Part shown: piece by piece, positions 45,435 through 54,884 of the stretch | How the letters are laid out: each line of letters starts with the position of its first letter | Position numbering within the stretch: the stretch's first letter is position 1 | Assembly (NCBI GenBank): GCA_024275165.1 | Contig: JAJRZQ010000030.1 | Location: forward strand, 1-57,211 | Source of the DNA: a bacterium | GTDB lineage: Bacteria; SAR324; XYD2-FULL-50-16 | DNA: 57,211 nt | Reading direction: 5' to 3' | The notes under the pieces: model-generated | Told to the model about the DNA's origin: nothing | Database searches by the model: none | Seen by the model: only the letters and a program-made list of their open reading frames with translations | Program-made: the position numbers and the translations under genes

Positions 45435-46592
45435 ATGAAAAAGTTGCTTTACTTTGCCCTGGCTTTGGCCCTGGTCCTTTTTTTTGGCTGGCGCTTTCTA
45501 CGGCCTTTAAATATTTTTGTGGTCGAAGACCGCTTTGCTTTGCCTGTGAAGGTGACCCTACCAGAGGGGATTGAGTCCTTCAGCGCCGATTATTGCGGCT
45601 CCTGCCATCAGGCCGTTTATCAAGAATGGTCGCAAAGCATGCATTCAAAGGCTTGGACGGATCCCTACTACCAAGTGGATTTAAAGTTCGATCACGATCA
45701 GCAGATTTGCCGCAATTGCCATATTCCTTTGGAGAACCAACAAAAAAACTTGGTGTTGGGTTTTCGGGACGCGGAGCGCTTTGACCCGATCTTAAAACCC
45801 AACCCTAATTTTGATGCCCGCTTGCAACAAGAGGGGGTAACCTGTGTGGTTTGCCATATCCGGGAGGGGAAAATCATCGGGCCGAGGGGCTCTAAACTGG
45901 CTCCTCATCAGGTGCAAGCGATGCCTGAGATGGCCAGCGGTATATCTGTTTGCCGGCAATGCCATTTGGTTTCCAATGACCGCTGGGATGTTTTTTATCA
46001 GATTCCCCCCTGTGGCACGGTTGCGGAGATCCATCAAGGGGGGCAAGAAATTGATTGCGTGGGTTGTCATCTGCCGAAAGTAGATCGCCCCTTAGTGGAG
46101 GGGTTCCCATCGGTGCGGGGGGGGAAACATCTCTTTCAAGGGGGGCATCATCCCCCCGCCGTCAAACAGTCTTTGAAGGTGGCGCTCTCTCAGCAGAAAA
46201 AGGGAGCGGATTGGCTCATCACCGCCACCTTGACCAATGTCAAGGCGGCTCATGCGCTACCCACCGGTACCCCAGACCGTTATTTGCAGCTGCGCATGAG
46301 GTTGCTGGACGCGCAAGGTCGCCCGGGCCCGGAGGAAACCTGGAAGTTGAAACGCTGGATCATGTGGAGGCCCTTTATTATAGAGCTTCGAGATACCCGT
46401 TTGCTCTACAATCAGCCCCAGAGTTTTGAGTTTCCGGTTGATCAAGCCCAAGGGGCGCACTATGATCGCTTGGAGGTTCAAGTCACCTATCATCTTTTGG
46501 ATGAATCCCGGCGCAAGCGCATTGGCTATCAGAACCAAGAGCCGATTTTATATCCGGTTTACCAAAAAACGGTTTCCCTACAAAAGCCCTAA
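45435..46592 (+). CDS. Pentahaem c-type cytochrome
   Basis: This 385-residue exported protein has an N-terminal anchor or uncleaved signal (about 3-20). Five CxxCH haem sites lie at residues 54-58, 92-96, 137-141, 173-177 and 208-212, in the pattern of the cytochrome c554/multihaem family. The C-terminal 160 residues (KVALSQQKKGADWLITATLTNVKAAHALPTG) have no haem site and look beta-rich. It would transfer electrons in the periplasm. It lies 59 bases after the rhodanese fusion gene. Confidence 0.92.
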   Translation: MKKLLYFALALALVLFFGWRFLRPLNIFVVEDRFALPVKVTLPEGIESFSADYCGSCHQAVYQEWSQSMHSKAWTDPYYQVDLKFDHDQQICRNCHIPLENQQKNLVLGFRDAERFDPILKPNPNFDARLQQEGVTCVVCHIREGKIIGPRGSKLAPHQVQAMPEMASGISVCRQCHLVSNDRWDVFYQIPPCGTVAEIHQGGQEIDCVGCHLPKVDRPLVEGFPSVRGGKHLFQGGHHPPAVKQSLKVALSQQKKGADWLITATLTNVKAAHALPTGTPDRYLQLRMRLLDAQGRPGPEETWKLKRWIMWRPFIIELRDTRLLYNQPQSFEFPVDQAQGAHYDRLEVQVTYHLLDESRRKRIGYQNQEPILYPVYQKTVSLQKP

Positions 46593-46593
46593 G

Positions 46594-47259
46594 ATGTCTA
46601 ATTTTAAGCATTTGTTGTATTCTCAATTTGCGAAGATCGCCAAAGCCTTAAGCAACCCTCATCGGTTGGAAATTTTAGAATACCTCTCTCAGAGGGAGCA
46701 CAATGTCGAGTCCCTAGCGTAAATATCCGGCCTGTCTTATGCCAACTGCTCTCAACACCTTCAGCAACTCAAGGCGGTGGGGTTGGTATCTCATCGTAAA
46801 GAGGCCCAGCATGTTTATTATAAAATCGCCAACGCGTTGGCTCACGAATGTATGGAATCCCTAGGCAAGGTCGCCCATTCCAACCTCGCGGAGGTCGACC
46901 GCTTGATCAACCAGCACTTGATGGCAAAAGACAGCCTGGAACCGATTTCCAGCGAAGAATTGAGGCAACGCCTCAAGGCTGACCAGGTGACTTTGATTGA
47001 TGTACGGCCTAACGGAGAATATGAGGCGGGGCATATTCGGGGGGCGATCAATGTCACTTTAGAGGAGTTGGAAGACTTCATCGCGACCCACCCCGTGCAA
47101 AATGAGGTCATTGCCTATTGCCGTGGCCCTTATTGCATGATGTCGTTTGAGGCTGTGCAGCGACTGCGCGCTCAAGGGATCAAAAGCCATCGGTTGGAAG
47201 AGGGATACCCCGAGTGGAGTTTGGCAGGGATGCCGATTGAGGGGCTCGCCTCGGGCTGA
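46594..47259 (+). pseudogene. ArsR-rhodanese regulator interrupted by in-frame TAA
   Basis: From ATG 46594 the frame reads MSNFKHLLYSQFAKIAKAL, then VESLA followed by TAA at 46720, then ISGLSYANCSQHLQQLKAVGLV without any shift, and on to a complete rhodanese domain (LIDVRPNGEYEAGHIRGA, active Cys in AYCRGPYC). The full length would be 221 residues, typical for ArsR-rhodanese fusions. The stop sits in the DNA-recognition region and is a single-base change from GAA, CAA or AAA. All the rest is intact, so this is a recent nonsense mutation, a sequence error or a read-through site. A GTG-started C-terminal piece (46777-47259) could still be made. Confidence 0.85.
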
Positions 47260-47629: not shown

Positions 47630-47971
47630 ATGACCCCTGTCTTTCGCTTACTACCCTTCCTACTCGCGAGCTTTTTGCTTTTTCTTCCCCCCTCCTTATG
47701 GGCTCAAGACGGTGAGTTTCGTTTGCTCATTCGAAATCACCGCTTTGAGCCGGTAAAGCTTAAGCTTCCTGCGCACAAAAAAGTAAAGCTTTTGGTGATC
47801 AATGAGGATGAAACCCCCGAAGAGTTTGAAAGTCATGATTTAAATCGGGAAAAGGTGGTGATGGGCAAAAGCCAAATCGTGGTCTACATTGGCCCCCTCA
47901 AGCCGGGAAACTATAAGTTTTTTGGAGACTTCAACCTTAAAACGGCTCAAGGCGAAATCATCGTCCAATAG
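47630..47971 (+). CDS. Periplasmic cupredoxin-like protein
   Basis: This 113-residue protein has a signal peptide (to about residue 25, LWAQ) and a single cupredoxin-1 domain: FRLLIRNHRFEPVKLKLPAHKKVKLLVINEDETPEEFESHDL and LKPGNYKFFGDFN. Such domains precede FTR1 permeases in many bacteria and are thought to present iron. The classic Cys of copper type-1 sites is missing, and His and Asp/Glu near ESHDL could be ligands. It is 62 bases upstream of the FTR1 gene. Confidence 0.85.
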   Translation: MTPVFRLLPFLLASFLLFLPPSLWAQDGEFRLLIRNHRFEPVKLKLPAHKKVKLLVINEDETPEEFESHDLNREKVVMGKSQIVVYIGPLKPGNYKFFGDFNLKTAQGEIIVQ

Positions 47972-48033
47972 GCACGCGTTGAGCTGGTTAGCGGAAGGAA
48001 AGATTTTCAATAAAATAAAATGAGGAGAATGCC

Positions 48034-48873
48034 ATGTTGAGTACGGCAATCGTGGTTTTTCGCGAGGTCTTGGAAGCGGCCTTGGTGATTGGTATTGTTC
48101 TGGCGGCAACTCAAGAGATGCCCTACCGCAGGTTTTGGGTTTCTCTGGGTTTTATGGGGGGGCTGGCCGGTGCCGGTTTGGTGGCCCTTTTTGCCGGAAC
48201 GATCGCCCAGGCGGCCTTTGGCATGGGGCAAGAGTTGTTCAATGCCCTAGTTCTCTCTTTAGCGGTCTGTATGCTCGGTTGGCATACGGTCTGGATGAGT
48301 CATCATGTTCAACAACTCTCCGTGCAGGTCAGGGCATTGCGGCAAGCCATTGTTGAAGAGGCCGGAGCCGCGAAGATGCTCGCTTTATTTATCGCGCTGG
48401 CTATTTTAAGGGAGGGGTCTGAAGTCGTTTTATTTCTTTATGGCTTATCCGTAGAGAGCGGAGGAGCCTTGAACCTGTTGTTGGGTGGCCTGATCGGGCT
48501 GGCTTTAGGGGTGCTGGTGGGCCTTTTTTTATATTTGGGGATTTTGCGTTTTTCCACAAAACATCTTTTTACCGTGACCTCTTGGATGATCCTCCTTCTC
48601 GCGGCGGGAATGGCTTCTCAGGCGGCAAATTACCTTGTGCAGGCAGATTGGCTTAACCCGCTATACACCAATGTATGGGATAGCTCGGCAATTTTGCCGG
48701 AGGGTTCCTTGCTTGGGGGAGTTCTGCATACCCTGATCGGCTATGAAGATCGACCTTCGGCCCTGCAAATTTTGGTTTATTTCACTACTTTGGGAACCCT
48801 TATTTTGCTCATGAAAGGGGTGCAAAAAAAGGACGCTAAAAAAAGCAAAGCCGCTTTGGGCGCGTCGCTTTGA
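48034..48873 (+). CDS. FTR1-family iron permease
   Basis: This 279-residue inner-membrane protein has seven hydrophobic helices. The two iron-binding RExxE motifs are REVLEAALV (about 9-14) and REGSEVVLF (about 126-131). Together with the cupredoxin it resembles the EfeUO-type ferrous/ferric uptake systems; no EfeB peroxidase is adjacent. Lead uptake is known for a sister branch. GAGGAG precedes the ATG. Confidence 0.92.
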   Translation: MLSTAIVVFREVLEAALVIGIVLAATQEMPYRRFWVSLGFMGGLAGAGLVALFAGTIAQAAFGMGQELFNALVLSLAVCMLGWHTVWMSHHVQQLSVQVRALRQAIVEEAGAAKMLALFIALAILREGSEVVLFLYGLSVESGGALNLLLGGLIGLALGVLVGLFLYLGILRFSTKHLFTVTSWMILLLAAGMASQAANYLVQADWLNPLYTNVWDSSAILPEGSLLGGVLHTLIGYEDRPSALQILVYFTTLGTLILLMKGVQKKDAKKSKAALGASL

Positions 48874-49531: not shown

Positions 49532-49843
49532 ATGCGCCTTATCTATTATTGCGCCTTGATTCTATTGAATCGGGCCACGCCTTTATTTATCCCAACTGAA
49601 ATTTTTAGGGTTCGGCCCCGGCCTGGGCTCAGGCCGTCGCCAGCCCCCAAACCGACTATCGCAGGGGGGGCGCAAGCTCGAACCCCGTCCTTTGACAGGC
49701 TCAAGGAGCAAATTCCACCTCGGCAAACCCGGGAAGGGGTTTTTAGCTTAGGTGGAGCTCAAAGTGCCTTTTTTGGCAAAATCATCTCCCACCTAAGCTG
49801 TCATGGGCCAATCCAACACACCGTTAAACTTGAAACGCAATGA
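49532..49843 (+). CDS. Doubtful leader ORF before czcC-like gene
   Basis: A 103-codon frame starts at ATG 49532 with GGAG six bases upstream, so translation could begin. The first 20 residues are hydrophobic, but the rest is Pro/Arg-rich with no domain, and the frame contains strong inverted repeats that look like RNA structure. It overlaps the czcC-like start by four bases. It may be a leader peptide whose translation affects the structures, or not a gene. Confidence 0.25.
   Translation: MRLIYYCALILLNRATPLFIPTEIFRVRPRPGLRPSPAPKPTIAGGAQARTPSFDRLKEQIPPRQTREGVFSLGGAQSAFFGKIISHLSCHGPIQHTVKLETQ
49619..49636 (+). promoter_or_regulatory. GC-rich leader hairpin
   Basis: CGGCCTG-GGCT-CAGGCCG is a perfect 7-bp stem in the about 300-base leader of the efflux operon. 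Confidence 0.45.
49745..49799 (+). promoter_or_regulatory. 11-bp leader stem before czcC-like gene
   Basis: AGCTTAGGTGG (49745-49755) pairs perfectly with CCACCTAAGCT (49789-49799). An inner TGCC/GGCA stem flanks six T. The structure ends 40 bases before the czcC-like ATG, so it could control read-through or ribosome access. Confidence 0.5.
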
Positions 49844-51063
49844 AATATTTATCATTATTTTTGGGCTTGCTGCTACTCTTGAGTTGGAGGCAGTCTGCTT
49901 TGGCGCTTGATTGCCACAACATGACGGGGCCCCAAACCCTATTGGAATGTACCCTGGCCAAGCACCCCTTGATGGTGAACGCTTTGGGGCTGCAACAGTC
50001 CGCGCTAGCGGGTCTGGTCCGAGCTGATCAATCCCCTAACCCTCGGTTTGAGCTCTATGCCGAAGATATCGGTGGTGACGCCTTGCGTCAAGAAGCGGCT
50101 TTTGTTCATCCCCTTGAACTGGGCGGGGCGAAATCGGCACGGAGGCACAAAGCCCAAGCAGAGCAAGAGCTAGCCAAAGCCAATACGCAATTGCAACGGA
50201 CTCAGGTGGTATTGCAAATCACGCAAGACCTCTACCGTTTGAGTCAGTTGCAAATTGAAGTTGCGCAGTTGAAAGAAAATATAACTACCTTTTCCAATTT
50301 GTTGCAGCGTTTTTCCAAAACCCGGGGGCTCAATCCAGAGCAAAGGGTTTCCCTTAGCGCCTACCAATTTGCCCTGCAAGAGAGCCAGTTGATGGCCTAT
50401 GATTTAAAGCAGGAGCGAAAAGTCATTTTGAGTCGTTTCCAGGCCATTCATGGCCTTGATTTTCGACTGGGGGATGATCTTTTGCCCGCTGCGACGATTG
50501 TTTGGCCACGGATTAAGCATGCCCCGTTGCAAAGCCCTGAATTAAAGCAAGCGCAAGCGGAGGTTTCTTACGCTCAAGGTCTTTTGCAAGTCGAAGAGGC
50601 AAAAGCCTGGGGGACTTTGGAACTGGCTCCGCGCATCATTCAAGAAACCCGCAACAACCTGCGCAAAAATAGCATTGCCTTTGGCTTGAATATTCCCCTC
50701 CCTCTTTACCAGTCAAATGCTGGCGGTAAGCAGCAGGCCCAAGCCAAGCTGGATACCAACCAGCAATTGGCCCAGCAAAAAGCTCAGGAATTGGCCGCTC
50801 GTTTTAAGCAAAAAAAAGAGAGTTATCAGCAAGTGTTGCGACAATTAAAGGATTTGCTGACCCCAGAGGAATTCCGGAAAAAGCACAAAGAAATTCACCA
50901 AGCCATGCGGCGGGGATCCCTCCCCGCTCCTCTGGTTATTGAGGTTCACCGTCAATTTTTAACCTTACTCAAACAACGCCACCAACTTGAATTATATGGC
51001 CTAGCCCAACTGATTCAAATCAAAAGCCTACAGGGTAATTTAAAGGAGTTTCAACTGCCATGA
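49840..51063 (+). CDS. CzcC-like outer-membrane efflux channel
   Basis: This 407-residue TolC-superfamily protein has a signal peptide (to about residue 22, SALA) and long coiled-coil helices (about 100-150, 290-380), with the repeat-like half motifs PNPRFELYAEDIGGDALRQEAAFVHPLELGGAK and IAFGLNIPLPLYQSNAGGKQQAQAKL. It should form the outer-membrane tunnel of a heavy-metal RND pump. It overlaps the adaptor gene by four bases. Confidence 0.9.
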   Translation: MKYLSLFLGLLLLLSWRQSALALDCHNMTGPQTLLECTLAKHPLMVNALGLQQSALAGLVRADQSPNPRFELYAEDIGGDALRQEAAFVHPLELGGAKSARRHKAQAEQELAKANTQLQRTQVVLQITQDLYRLSQLQIEVAQLKENITTFSNLLQRFSKTRGLNPEQRVSLSAYQFALQESQLMAYDLKQERKVILSRFQAIHGLDFRLGDDLLPAATIVWPRIKHAPLQSPELKQAQAEVSYAQGLLQVEEAKAWGTLELAPRIIQETRNNLRKNSIAFGLNIPLPLYQSNAGGKQQAQAKLDTNQQLAQQKAQELAARFKQKKESYQQVLRQLKDLLTPEEFRKKHKEIHQAMRRGSLPAPLVIEVHRQFLTLLKQRHQLELYGLAQLIQIKSLQGNLKEFQLP

Positions 51064-51719
51064 AAGCAACTCAAATGATTCTTTTTATCCTGATCTTCTG
51101 GGGCGCTATGGGTGTTGCCTACGCGCGGGTTCCCACAACGGATTCAACTCAAACCGAGGGCGATCACGCCTCTCATGAAGGGGAAGAGCCCACCCGGCAC
51201 CAAGCAGGGGATCACGCCTCTCATGAAGGGGAAGAGCCCACCCGGCACCAAGCAGGGGATCACGCCTCTCATGAAGGGGAAGAGCCCACCCGGCACCAAG
51301 CAGGGGATCACGCCTCTCATGAAGGGGAAGATTCGCATGAGGAGCATGGGGTAGAAGCTTTTGGTCAAGGCATGGCCATTGAGGCCATAGCCGGAGAAGG
51401 GGCGCGTTTCCGCCTCTCTCAAAAGGCCGTGGATCTTTTAAAAATCAAAGTCCGAACTTTAGGGGTGAGGTCGGCAAAGGGGTTTCAACTGCCTTTTAGC
51501 GCCTTAGTGCAATTTCAACAGAATCAAGCGGTCTACCTTTGGCAAGATCGCTGGGCTACCCTGGTGTTGGTCCAAACCCAACGGGATGAAGAGGGCGATT
51601 GGTGGGTTCAGGCTCCCCAATTGCAAAAGGATTCTCAAGTCGTCATTTTCGGCAACGCCTTATTGCGTATTGCTCAGTTGCAGGCACTTGGCCAAGGTGG
51701 TCAAGGCCATGCCCATTAA
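51060..51719 (+). CDS. Reduced, His-rich CzcB-like periplasmic adaptor
   Basis: This 219-residue protein has a signal peptide (to about residue 22) and then a metal-binding-like tract: the 16-residue unit GDHASHEGEEPTRHQA repeated three times plus a partial fourth, and ending GHAH at the C-terminus. The rest has FRLSQKAVDLLKIKVRTLGVRS, like the start of CzcB adaptors, joined straight to LPFSALVQFQQNQAVYLWQDRW and LQKDSQVVIFGNALLRIAQLQAL, like their membrane-proximal end. The lipoyl, alpha-hairpin and beta-barrel parts of a normal 380-500-residue adaptor are missing. It lies between czcC- and czcA-like genes, so it probably replaces CzcB. Confidence 0.75.
   Translation: MKATQMILFILIFWGAMGVAYARVPTTDSTQTEGDHASHEGEEPTRHQAGDHASHEGEEPTRHQAGDHASHEGEEPTRHQAGDHASHEGEDSHEEHGVEAFGQGMAIEAIAGEGARFRLSQKAVDLLKIKVRTLGVRSAKGFQLPFSALVQFQQNQAVYLWQDRWATLVLVQTQRDEEGDWWVQAPQLQKDSQVVIFGNALLRIAQLQALGQGGQGHAH
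51162..51331 (+). repeat. 48-bp coding tandem repeat
   Basis: Identical 48-bp units start at 51162, 51210 and 51258, with a 26-bp partial unit at 51306. They encode the His/Glu-rich repeat of the adaptor. The copies are identical in DNA, which indicates recent expansion or homogenisation. Confidence 0.97.
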
Positions 51720-51740: not shown

Positions 51741-54700
51741 ATGATCAATCAAATCATCGTAGCCGCTATCAAGCGAAAGGGATTTGTCTTTTTGCTTACC
51801 CTGATGGCTTGTTTTCTTGGCTGGTTTTCCTTTCAATCGTTACCCATTGACGCGGTTCCCGATATTACCAACAATCAGGTGCAAATCAATACCTCGGTCA
51901 AGGGGCTCATCCCCGAAGAGATTGAAAGCTATGTCACCTTCCCCATTGAAACCGGAATGGGGGGGATCCCCGGGGTGCAAGCGGTGCGCTCCATCAGTCG
52001 CTTTGGGCTATCTCAAGTGACTTTGATTTTTGAAGACGAGATCAGTGTGTACTTGGCCCGTCAATTGGTGAGTGAAAAACTTCAGGCCGTACTCCCTCAA
52101 CTTCCCCAAGGGGTACAGCCTCAATTGGGCCCTTTATCGACCGGGTTGGGGGAAATCTTTTTTTACTCTTTGCAGGCAACCCACCCCCTGGTAGACCCTC
52201 AGCAACGCCTAGCGGAGTTGATGCAGTTGCGTGCCTTAAACGAATTTAGCATTAAACCCCGTTTGCTCACGGTGAAGGGGGTCGCGGAAGTCAATGTGAT
52301 CGGGGGGTATAAAAAGACCTTTTATGTGCAGCCGAATCTAAAAAAACTATCGAGCTACGGGATTCATCTCGATGAATTGGTGGTGGCCTTAGAAAAAAAC
52401 AACCGCAACACCGGGGGCGGTTACATCCAACAAACCGCCGAACAGTTGTTGATTCAAGCCGAGGGCTTGATTGAACGCCCTGAGGATATCCGCTCGATTG
52501 TCATCAAGCGGCTGAGCAACTTGGAAACCATCACCATTGGGCAGGTCGCCCGCGTGGGGATTGATAAAAATCTGCGCACCGGCGCGGCCTTGGTCAATGG
52601 GCAAGAGAGCATTGTGGGTACGGTTTTGATGCAGTTGGGCGAAAACAGCCGGACCGTATCGCTGGAGGTTGCCACAAAGGTCAAAGAGATTCAGCAAAGC
52701 TTGCCAGAAGGGGTTGAAATCAAGGTTCTTTATAACCGCTCGAGTTTAGTGGATCAAACCTTAAACACGGTAGAAAAAAACCTCGCTTTTGGGGCTTTTT
52801 TGGTCATGGTGATTTTGTTGCTTTTAATCGGGCAGGTTCGGGTGGCGCTCATTACCGCGGTTACCATTCCCTTGGCTTTGTTGGTTACCTTTATTATGAT
52901 GCGCCTTTTTAATATTTCTGGAAACCTGATGAGCCTTGGGGCCTTGGATTTTGGGATTATCATTGATGGGGCGGTGATTGTGATGGATAATTGCATTCGC
53001 CGAGTGAACGATAAAATAACCGAGTTGGGTCGGCCCTTATCCCGGGAGGAAGTCCGCGATACGGTAACGAAGGCGACCATTGAAATTCGCTCTGCTGCGG
53101 GTTTTGGGCAGTTGATCATCCTCATTGTCTTTTTGCCGATCTTCGCTTTGACCGGGGTGGAAGCCAAGATGTTTATTCCCATGGCCTCGACCTTTTGTTT
53201 TGCCTTGGGGGCCGCCTTCTTGATTTCTTTTACCACAATTCCGGCTTTGGCAGGGCAGTTTTTAAGTGGAAAAGCGGCCAAAAAGGTCAACCCCTTGGTC
53301 GCCTTTTTGGAAAAGGTCTATGCTTGGGTCATCCATCGGGCCTTGCTTTATAAAAAAGCGGTGGTGGGCATGGGAATTCTTTCGATTGTCGTGGGCGCCG
53401 GTCTGTTTTCCACCCTGGGGGCCGACTTCCTGCCCCAATTGGATGAGGGTTCCATCGCCATTCAATTTGTGCGCCCCACCAATATCAATATCAATCAAGC
53501 TGTGGTAATGCAGGAGCTTTCTGAAAAATTGATTATTGAGTTTGCCGAGGTCAGCCTGGTTTTTTCCCGGCTCGGTACCGCGGAAGTGGCGACCGATCCC
53601 ATGGGAGTCAATTCATCGGATACCTATGTGCTTTTAAAACCCAAAGATCAATGGCCCCAACATGAGGGGAAACAGTGGAACAAATTAGACCTCTTAAACG
53701 CGATTCAAGCCAAGCTGCTGGAGTCCATTCCCGGTCAAACCCTGATTTTTTCTCAGCCGATTCAATTGCGCTTTAATGAACTCTTAGAGGGAGTGCGGAG
53801 TGATGTGGCCCTAAAAATCTTTGGCGACAACATCGACCAACTCAGCGAGTTTGCCGGCCAGGCGGAAAAAATCATCAGCCAGGTCCCCGGTGCGGGCGAT
53901 GTGGAAAAGGAGGTCAGGGGGAAGTCTCCGGTTTTGCGGATTCAACCAAAAACAGTTGAATTGCAGAACTTTGGTATTCCTAAAGACAATATACTCAATA
54001 CCGTTGAAGCCGCCATTGGGGGGGTCGAGGCCGGGAACCTCTATGAAGGGGTCATGCGCTTTCCTATTGTGGTTCGGTTGCAAGAGCAGGACCGGAGCGA
54101 TTTAGAGCAAATTCGCAACCTCCCTGTGGGGATTTCTGAAAACTTAACCGTGCCCTTAAAGGAGCTTGCCAAGATCAGTATTCAAGAAACCTATGGCGAT
54201 ATTCGCCGGGAATCCTTCCAAAAACGCACCGCGCTTTTAATCAATGTTCGAGGGAGAGACACCCAAAGTTTTGTGCAAGAGGCCAAAGCTCGGGTCGAGG
54301 AAAAAGTTACGCTTCCCGCCGGTGTTTTTATGGAGTGGGGAGGGAGTTTTAAAAACCTGGCCAAGGCAAAGCAGCGGCTGACGGTCGTGGTGCCGGTCGC
54401 CTTGATCTTAGTTTTTGCGATGATTTATTTGGCGTTTCGCAGCCTGCTGCAAACGGTGATGATTTTTACCTGCATTCCGATGAGTTTGGTCGGTGGGGTT
54501 TTAGGGCTGAAATTGAATCATTTGGAATTTAGTATTTCCGCCGCGATTGGTTTTATTGCGCTATCTGGGATTGCGGTTTTAAATGGAATCGTATTGGTCA
54601 GTTTTTTTAATCGACTTAAATTAAGTGGAGTAACGGGCGATGAACTGATTAAAGAAGGGACGAGGTTGAGGTTGAGGCCTGTTTTGATGACGGCCTCGGC

Positions 54701-54884
54701 AGCGGCGTTTGGCTTTTTGCCCATGATGCTTTCTACCGGAGCGGGGGCGGATGTGCAGCGGCCTTTGGCTTCTGTGGTGGTGGGGGGGATTCTCTCGGCT
54801 ACCTTGCTGACTTTGGTTGTTTTGCCGGTCGTTTATCGGATGCTGGAAGATAAAATGCAAATTCAAGATACGGGTTTGCATTGA
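51741..54884 (+). CDS. CzcA-type heavy-metal RND efflux pump
   Basis: This 1,047-residue inner-membrane protein has twelve membrane helices in two halves and two large periplasmic domains. The fourth-helix motif LDFGIIIDGAVIVMDNCIRR is that of the heavy-metal (HME) RND group, with Asp residues for proton transfer. Other typical parts are DITNNQVQINTSVKGLIPEEIE, VRSISRFGLSQVT and the C-terminal LRLRPVLMTASAAAFGFLPMM. It exports divalent (Zn/Co/Cd) or monovalent (Cu/Ag) metals by proton antiport; the DFG-DGA motif leans to the divalent type. It starts 21 bases after the adaptor. Confidence 0.95.
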   Translation: MINQIIVAAIKRKGFVFLLTLMACFLGWFSFQSLPIDAVPDITNNQVQINTSVKGLIPEEIESYVTFPIETGMGGIPGVQAVRSISRFGLSQVTLIFEDEISVYLARQLVSEKLQAVLPQLPQGVQPQLGPLSTGLGEIFFYSLQATHPLVDPQQRLAELMQLRALNEFSIKPRLLTVKGVAEVNVIGGYKKTFYVQPNLKKLSSYGIHLDELVVALEKNNRNTGGGYIQQTAEQLLIQAEGLIERPEDIRSIVIKRLSNLETITIGQVARVGIDKNLRTGAALVNGQESIVGTVLMQLGENSRTVSLEVATKVKEIQQSLPEGVEIKVLYNRSSLVDQTLNTVEKNLAFGAFLVMVILLLLIGQVRVALITAVTIPLALLVTFIMMRLFNISGNLMSLGALDFGIIIDGAVIVMDNCIRRVNDKITELGRPLSREEVRDTVTKATIEIRSAAGFGQLIILIVFLPIFALTGVEAKMFIPMASTFCFALGAAFLISFTTIPALAGQFLSGKAAKKVNPLVAFLEKVYAWVIHRALLYKKAVVGMGILSIVVGAGLFSTLGADFLPQLDEGSIAIQFVRPTNININQAVVMQELSEKLIIEFAEVSLVFSRLGTAEVATDPMGVNSSDTYVLLKPKDQWPQHEGKQWNKLDLLNAIQAKLLESIPGQTLIFSQPIQLRFNELLEGVRSDVALKIFGDNIDQLSEFAGQAEKIISQVPGAGDVEKEVRGKSPVLRIQPKTVELQNFGIPKDNILNTVEAAIGGVEAGNLYEGVMRFPIVVRLQEQDRSDLEQIRNLPVGISENLTVPLKELAKISIQETYGDIRRESFQKRTALLINVRGRDTQSFVQEAKARVEEKVTLPAGVFMEWGGSFKNLAKAKQRLTVVVPVALILVFAMIYLAFRSLLQTVMIFTCIPMSLVGGVLGLKLNHLEFSISAAIGFIALSGIAVLNGIVLVSFFNRLKLSGVTGDELIKEGTRLRLRPVLMTASAAAFGFLPMMLSTGAGADVQRPLASVVVGGILSATLLTLVVLPVVYRMLEDKMQIQDTGLH

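Follow-up and report, generated by a model that had tools for sequence, protein, structure and literature searches.

Whether an RND pump and its OMF touch each other directly or solely via the hairpins of an adaptor has long been argued. The locus described here raises this question anew: can a CzcCBA-type metal exporter operate when the protein encoded between its OMF and its pump has lost the parts of an adaptor that normally bridge the two? The window, i.e., the whole stretch of DNA that was analysed (57,211 nucleotides, contig JAJRZQ010000030.1, from a bacterium of the SAR324 lineage), contains such an operon. A previous sequence-only reading had noticed that its middle protein keeps only the two ends of a CzcB adaptor along with a His-rich tract. 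The present analysis examines the domain content of this protein, its distribution in other genomes, the surfaces of the OMF and the pump, and the possible ways in which the system could work.

The operon and its components

The efflux genes, and two genes upstream of them, are as follows.

47630..47971, forward strand: cupredoxin-like protein (Pfam Cupredoxin_1, E 4.1e-27)
48034..48873, forward strand: FTR1-type iron permease (Pfam FTR1, E 9.8e-35)
49840..51063, forward strand: OMF of the CzcC/TolC type, 407 aa (Pfam OEP, E 6.9e-7; aligned with OMFs of the clade and of full-adaptor systems)
51060..51719, forward strand: short adaptor, 219 aa, exported, MP domain only
51741..54884, forward strand: CzcA-type HME-RND pump, 1047 aa (TIGR00914, 1174.3 bits)

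The ATG of the short-adaptor ORF (51060-51719) overlaps the stop codon of the OMF gene (ATGA), and a spacing of 21 nt separates it from the CzcA gene. The pump scores well above the cut-off of the CusA/CzcA family model TIGR00914 (1174.3 bits vs 701.45), and its nearest solved structure is ZneA (4k0e). TM4 of the pump carries the DFGxxxDGA proton/metal motif (GALDFGIIIDGAVIVMDN), which matches CzcA of CH34 and not the CusA type. Since TM4 is of the CzcA rather than the CusA type, the substrate is presumably divalent cations. The OMF is encoded next to the pump as in CzcCBA, and its 407 aa lie within the length range of CzcC (418 aa). Where the tripartite CzcCBA has a full-length adaptor, the operon has a 219-aa MP-only protein in its place. 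The proposed assignment as a CzcCBA-type operon, with a metal-ligand-like leader on the middle protein, held up. A TIGR01730 search revealed no further adaptors on the window's contig. The alignments were also inspected for a longer OMF or a large extension of the CzcA crown that might compensate, and showed neither.

The cupredoxin-like and FTR1 genes (47630-48873) precede the efflux genes in the same orientation, and together with them constitute a possible joint metal import/export locus. Upstream of these, a gene for an ArsR-type regulator-rhodanese fusion (46592-47259) has an in-frame TAA at 46720-46722 within its ArsR part, with the frame open on either side. This regulator gene may be broken, or a base may have been miscalled.

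The middle protein is reduced to the membrane-proximal domain

The following features were assigned within the short gene.

51060..51125, forward strand: putative signal peptide, aa 1-22, ending in GVAYA, read from the sequence
51126..51407, forward strand: His/Glu-rich leader, aa 23-116, with 13 His and 23 Asp+Glu (AF2 and composition)
51157..51331, forward strand: 48-bp tandem array, 3.6 copies, 99% match, absent from homologues
51408..51464, forward strand: N-terminal piece of the MP domain, aa 117-135, FRLSQKAVDLLKIKVRTLG (CzcB CH34 168-203)
51483..51674, forward strand: C-terminal piece of the MP domain, aa 142-205 (CzcB CH34 450-507; TIGR01730 245-314)

When nine short proteins were set against ten full-length CzcB-type adaptors in a profile-profile comparison, the C-terminal piece aligned with residues 450-507 of CzcB CH34 (P 7.9e-6). 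The N-terminal piece aligned with residues 168-203 (P 0.017, weak alone) and forms a strand-helix-strand in the AF2 model. The aligned pieces are the two ends of the CzcB chain that build the membrane-proximal (MP) domain. Relative to CzcB CH34, ~245 residues are absent between both pieces, comprising the beta-barrel, lipoyl and hairpin parts. Similarly, TIGR01730 matches the window protein at model positions 245-314 of 322 only, with a score below the cut-off (15.3 bits vs 94.9). Within the short family, this model was matched by five of six members and TIGR00999 (CzcB/NccB) by three of six, the best E-value among the matches to the two models being 1.9e-9. AF2 yielded a confident domain at about residues 107-212. 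The best 11 Foldseek matches of the window protein were RND adaptor chains without exception, with CusB in 3ne5 at the top and BesA, TriABC and the SilB construct 5a4g among them; their probabilities of 1.00 and E-values of 0.007-0.1 are supportive, not decisive alone. A phmmer search of the PDB with the MP part returned nothing relevant, and neither a search of the genome contigs with the short protein nor a plasmid tblastn gave any match. Taken together, profile-profile comparison, AF2 and Foldseek bear out the earlier observation that two CzcB ends survive while lipoyl, hairpin and barrel are gone, and the window protein is confirmed as a CzcB adaptor reduced to its MP domain.

The leader (aa 23-116) is mostly of low confidence in AF2 and looks disordered. 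Judging from the composition of its His/Glu tract, it may bind metal. A Pfam ZIP match to the His tract was rejected, as it reflected composition only. The tract had been thought to stand in place of the lost domains; instead, it precedes the MP domain. Furthermore, it is no stand-in for them, because a full-length adaptor (L040) also has a His-rich leader, and homologues of 125 and 145 aa have no tract at all. The 48-bp array at 51157-51331, inside the coding sequence, is likely a recent expansion, and its copy number possibly varies between strains.

Short and absent adaptors characterize a whole CzcA branch

A survey of operons with similarly short middle genes had been suggested as a check. 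Nine genomes (n=9) carry a gene for such a protein, of 125-219 aa, in the interval from OMF to CzcA, and adaptor-less relatives were found besides. The homologues in the eight other genomes measure 125-209 aa, with the gene order of the window. Their carriers are G002 (same family as the window genome), the Bdellovibrionota MAG UBA6776 (L018), three genomes of one small phylum (G084, G385 and G384, whose contig stops short of CzcA) and three of another phylum (G429, G403, G415). Most genomes in the set look like drafts or MAGs. Gene order is conserved across several phyla, and identity to the window copy is 25-43% over the whole alignment; for the nearest genus, the MP part alone gives 51%. 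The His-rich short proteins have 191-219 aa; those of G403 (145 aa) and G415 (125 aa, a probable lipoprotein) are without the His tract. Judging from these two homologues, the MP domain is the conserved unit and the His tract a variable, dispensable N-terminal leader.

A CDF exporter gene lies downstream in several operons. Just upstream of the OMF, some loci encode small Cys/His-rich exported proteins (L061:4462-4740, L026:8022-8381, L065:10440-10901, L018:5468-6055). These recall CzcI, and the two tested had no Pfam match.

In other genomes, CzcA comes immediately after the OMF gene, with no adaptor gene in between (G319, G421, G404, G395, G400 and, twice, G425), and the same arrangement occurs in G339 and, twice, in G080. 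An adaptor profile search found none within 12-16 kb around the operons of G319, G339 and one of G080. For the remaining adaptor-less operons, a genome-wide TIGR01730 search found none on the same contig, barring one G425 contig with an adaptor ~14 kb away. Within 12-20 kb around the operons of G002, UBA6776, G084, G385, G319, G339 and G080, the only full-length adaptors were CusBs, each adjoining its own CusA.

In the CzcA trees, all 17 rows with a short (8) or no (9) adaptor fell on one branch, supported at 98 in a quick tree, at 99/96 in a careful tree and by 98% of bootstrap trees. No CzcA with a full-length adaptor was placed inside this branch among the tree rows. The short-adaptor group had a support of 71/95 in the careful tree. 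The CzcA rows of L041 and L042 were omitted from the later tree on account of their very long branches and an apparent extraction error. A look at the other G080 copy after the trees had been built showed no adaptor beside its CzcA either. About half of the sampled branch members are without any adaptor gene; the TM4 transport motif is largely kept in the branch, and CzcA and OMF are intact throughout. Thus, the unusual system is not a single operon but a whole CzcA branch.

The CzcA frames of L046, L051 and L057 are ~1450 aa long, far above the usual length, and are possibly CzcA-OMF domain fusions.

OMF tips and the CzcA crown differ in the clade

The periplasmic tips of an OMF are the usual docking site of the adaptor. 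The tips and the crown turn of the pump lie at these positions in the window.

50317..50355, forward strand: OMF periplasmic tip 1 (H3/H4 turn), aa 160-172, by alignment
50908..50955, forward strand: OMF periplasmic tip 2 (H7/H8 turn), aa 357-372, by alignment
52500..52526, forward strand: CzcA crown beta1 turn, aa 254-262, VIKRLSNLE, with the xG-xP turn lost

We take these OMF segments to be the tips by homology to TolC, and the crown turn to be the equivalent of the AcrB D256 (beta1) hairpin from the alignment and the structure of AcrB. At tip 1, the core clade has xLxPEQ where full-adaptor OMFs have AGKxSP, the clade-specific positions being 164, 166-168 and 171; at tip 2, it has G(L/V)V..LVIExHRQ against GKF..LDVLDAQR. 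The two tips make up 32 of 386 OMF columns and contain 11 of the 35 that are clade-specific (P 2.4e-5, a value that treats columns as independent although the rows are related). The tip motifs are common to short-adaptor and no-adaptor members. On the side of the pump, the xG-xP crown turn is present in none of the 15 core-clade CzcAs, in both basal adaptor-less members (G339 and G080 keep the ordinary turn) and in 24 of 24 full-adaptor CzcAs. The contrast between core and full-adaptor CzcAs gives a Fisher P of 4e-11, to be read, given shared ancestry, as really one or few events. In a docking model consistent with cross-linking, the AcrB D256 hairpin lies against TolC helices H3/H4 (PMC2292822). 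Because both facing surfaces changed whether or not a member has the short protein, the tip and crown changes would fit a common partner, most simply the OMF and CzcA themselves. They could also be lineage drift or tuning to another partner.

Proposed direct docking and its rivals

We lean slightly towards the reading that the adaptor lost its bridging role and left an MP-only, metal-presenting subunit, with direct docking between OMF and CzcA. Here, the OMF would dock tip to crown on the CzcA trimer. The 219-aa protein would sit at the periplasmic entrance of CzcA and present metal gathered by its disordered His/Asp/Glu arm, and sister lineages would do without this subunit entirely. Correlated motifs are what suggest the direct docking. 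MP domains have been proposed to serve in substrate presentation (PMC4446572). The wider proposal has a little less than an even chance in our estimation: that a multi-phylum branch of RND metal exporters is a two-component, tip-to-crown OMF-CzcA system, in which the adaptor became an optional MP metal-loading subunit and was lost in several lineages.

The sequence-only reading had left two alternatives, a minimal metal-delivering adaptor or another adaptor supplied in trans, and the former is better supported, the latter finding no support in the window's genome. An adaptor in trans (CusB-like, AcrA-like or orphan) would complete the channel, with the short protein as an accessory or mixed-ring partner; we regard this as unlikely, though it is the most probable of the rivals. 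Sharing has precedents, as AcrA works with both AcrB and AcrD in E. coli, and TriA and TriB share one pump. The window's genome (G000, 98% complete) does encode three full-length adaptors by TIGR01730, but each adjoins its own RND pump, and the same search found no orphan.

Orphan lipoprotein RND-type adaptors without an adjacent pump occur in the phylum of G319 (L082, L083, L080, L085-L088, L093), in several genomes beside rplU or a phosphodiester-glycosidase-like gene. Their existence would be in keeping with supply in trans. However, relatives of the orphan are present in 44 of 46 genomes of this phylum and the clade CzcA in only 10. The distribution is that of a protein general to the phylum, probably with a different role. 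The orphan was rejected as the pump partner, being confined to one phylum and showing no linkage to the pump. Moreover, none of the adaptors found is shared by every clade genome, even though the OMF tip motif is clade-wide.

Less probable still is an uncoupled two-stage export, where CzcA would move metal no further than the periplasm, a metallochaperone role would fall to the short protein and the OMF would work separately with no trans-envelope channel. The missing bridging module and the CDF exporter downstream in several operons, which suggests stepwise export, agree with it. In contrast, the OMF gene always adjoins the short gene or CzcA, and the clade-specific OMF tips together with the changed CzcA crown suggest contact.

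A decaying adaptor in an operon on its way to losing function seems very improbable to us. The coexistence of short and absent forms, the recent repeat expansion in the window gene and the in-frame stop in the upstream regulator gene could be cited in its favour. Against these stand a short protein still recognisable across distant lineages at the identities given above, intact CzcA and OMF, a gene order kept across several phyla and a largely kept TM4 motif. That the short gene is really a full-length czcB distorted by misassembly or by a frameshift (the latter named earlier as a refutation) has a negligible probability. Nothing but the repeat array speaks for it, and it is excluded by the 125-209-aa homologues in eight other genomes, by the 12-20 kb around seven related operons, which are free of full-length adaptors bar CusBs beside their own CusA, and by the lack of a second adaptor on the window's contig in the TIGR01730 search.

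One real difficulty for direct docking of the OMF on CzcA is distance: with an OMF no longer than CzcC, both membranes would need to be drawn closer together. Besides, cryo-EM of canonical pumps has favoured adaptor-bridged over direct contact.

Comparison with known systems

A CzcA branch whose adaptors are MP-only or missing offers natural systems for testing direct docking. The clade also separates the proposed role of the MP domain (metal presentation) from bridging, and the three-part pump of the textbooks may also function with two parts. No earlier description of adaptor-less or MP-only CzcCA systems was found in the open-licence papers searched, and their novelty is therefore provisional.

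CzcCBA of Cupriavidus metallidurans CH34 (pMOL30) shares with the clade the OMF-adaptor-CzcA order, an HME-RND pump with DFGxxxDGA in TM4 and, often, a CDF gene downstream. In contrast, its CzcB has 520 aa with barrel, lipoyl and hairpin parts, where the clade has an adaptor of 125-219 aa or none, and OMF tips and CzcA crown differ as well. CusB and CusF of the E. coli CusCFBA system resemble the window protein in periplasmic metal delivery to an HME-RND pump, as far as this role can be presumed for the latter. However, CusB is a full adaptor, and CusF has a metallochaperone fold of its own. The SilB construct 5a4g likewise combines a metal-ligand-rich N-terminus with an MP domain (Foldseek, 74 columns, probability 1.00), and, as judged from the predicted model, the window protein resembles a natural version of this laboratory construct. 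Natural SilB is full-length and handles Cu/Ag with Met ligands, whereas the window protein has His/Asp/Glu ligands.

BesA, encoded in the RND operon of the Borrelia burgdorferi BesCAB system, is likewise a reduced adaptor. Only the hairpin is missing from it, and the exit duct and the transporter were argued to have to touch directly in this system (PMC3807786). Of the challenges to tip-to-tip models, BesA has been described as perhaps the biggest (PMC4446572). It belongs to a drug pump and still has its lipoyl, beta-barrel and MP domains; the window protein has lost the lipoyl and beta-barrel parts too, and the clade retains the MP domain only or nothing. BesA is the nearest precedent, and the clade proteins go further in domain loss.
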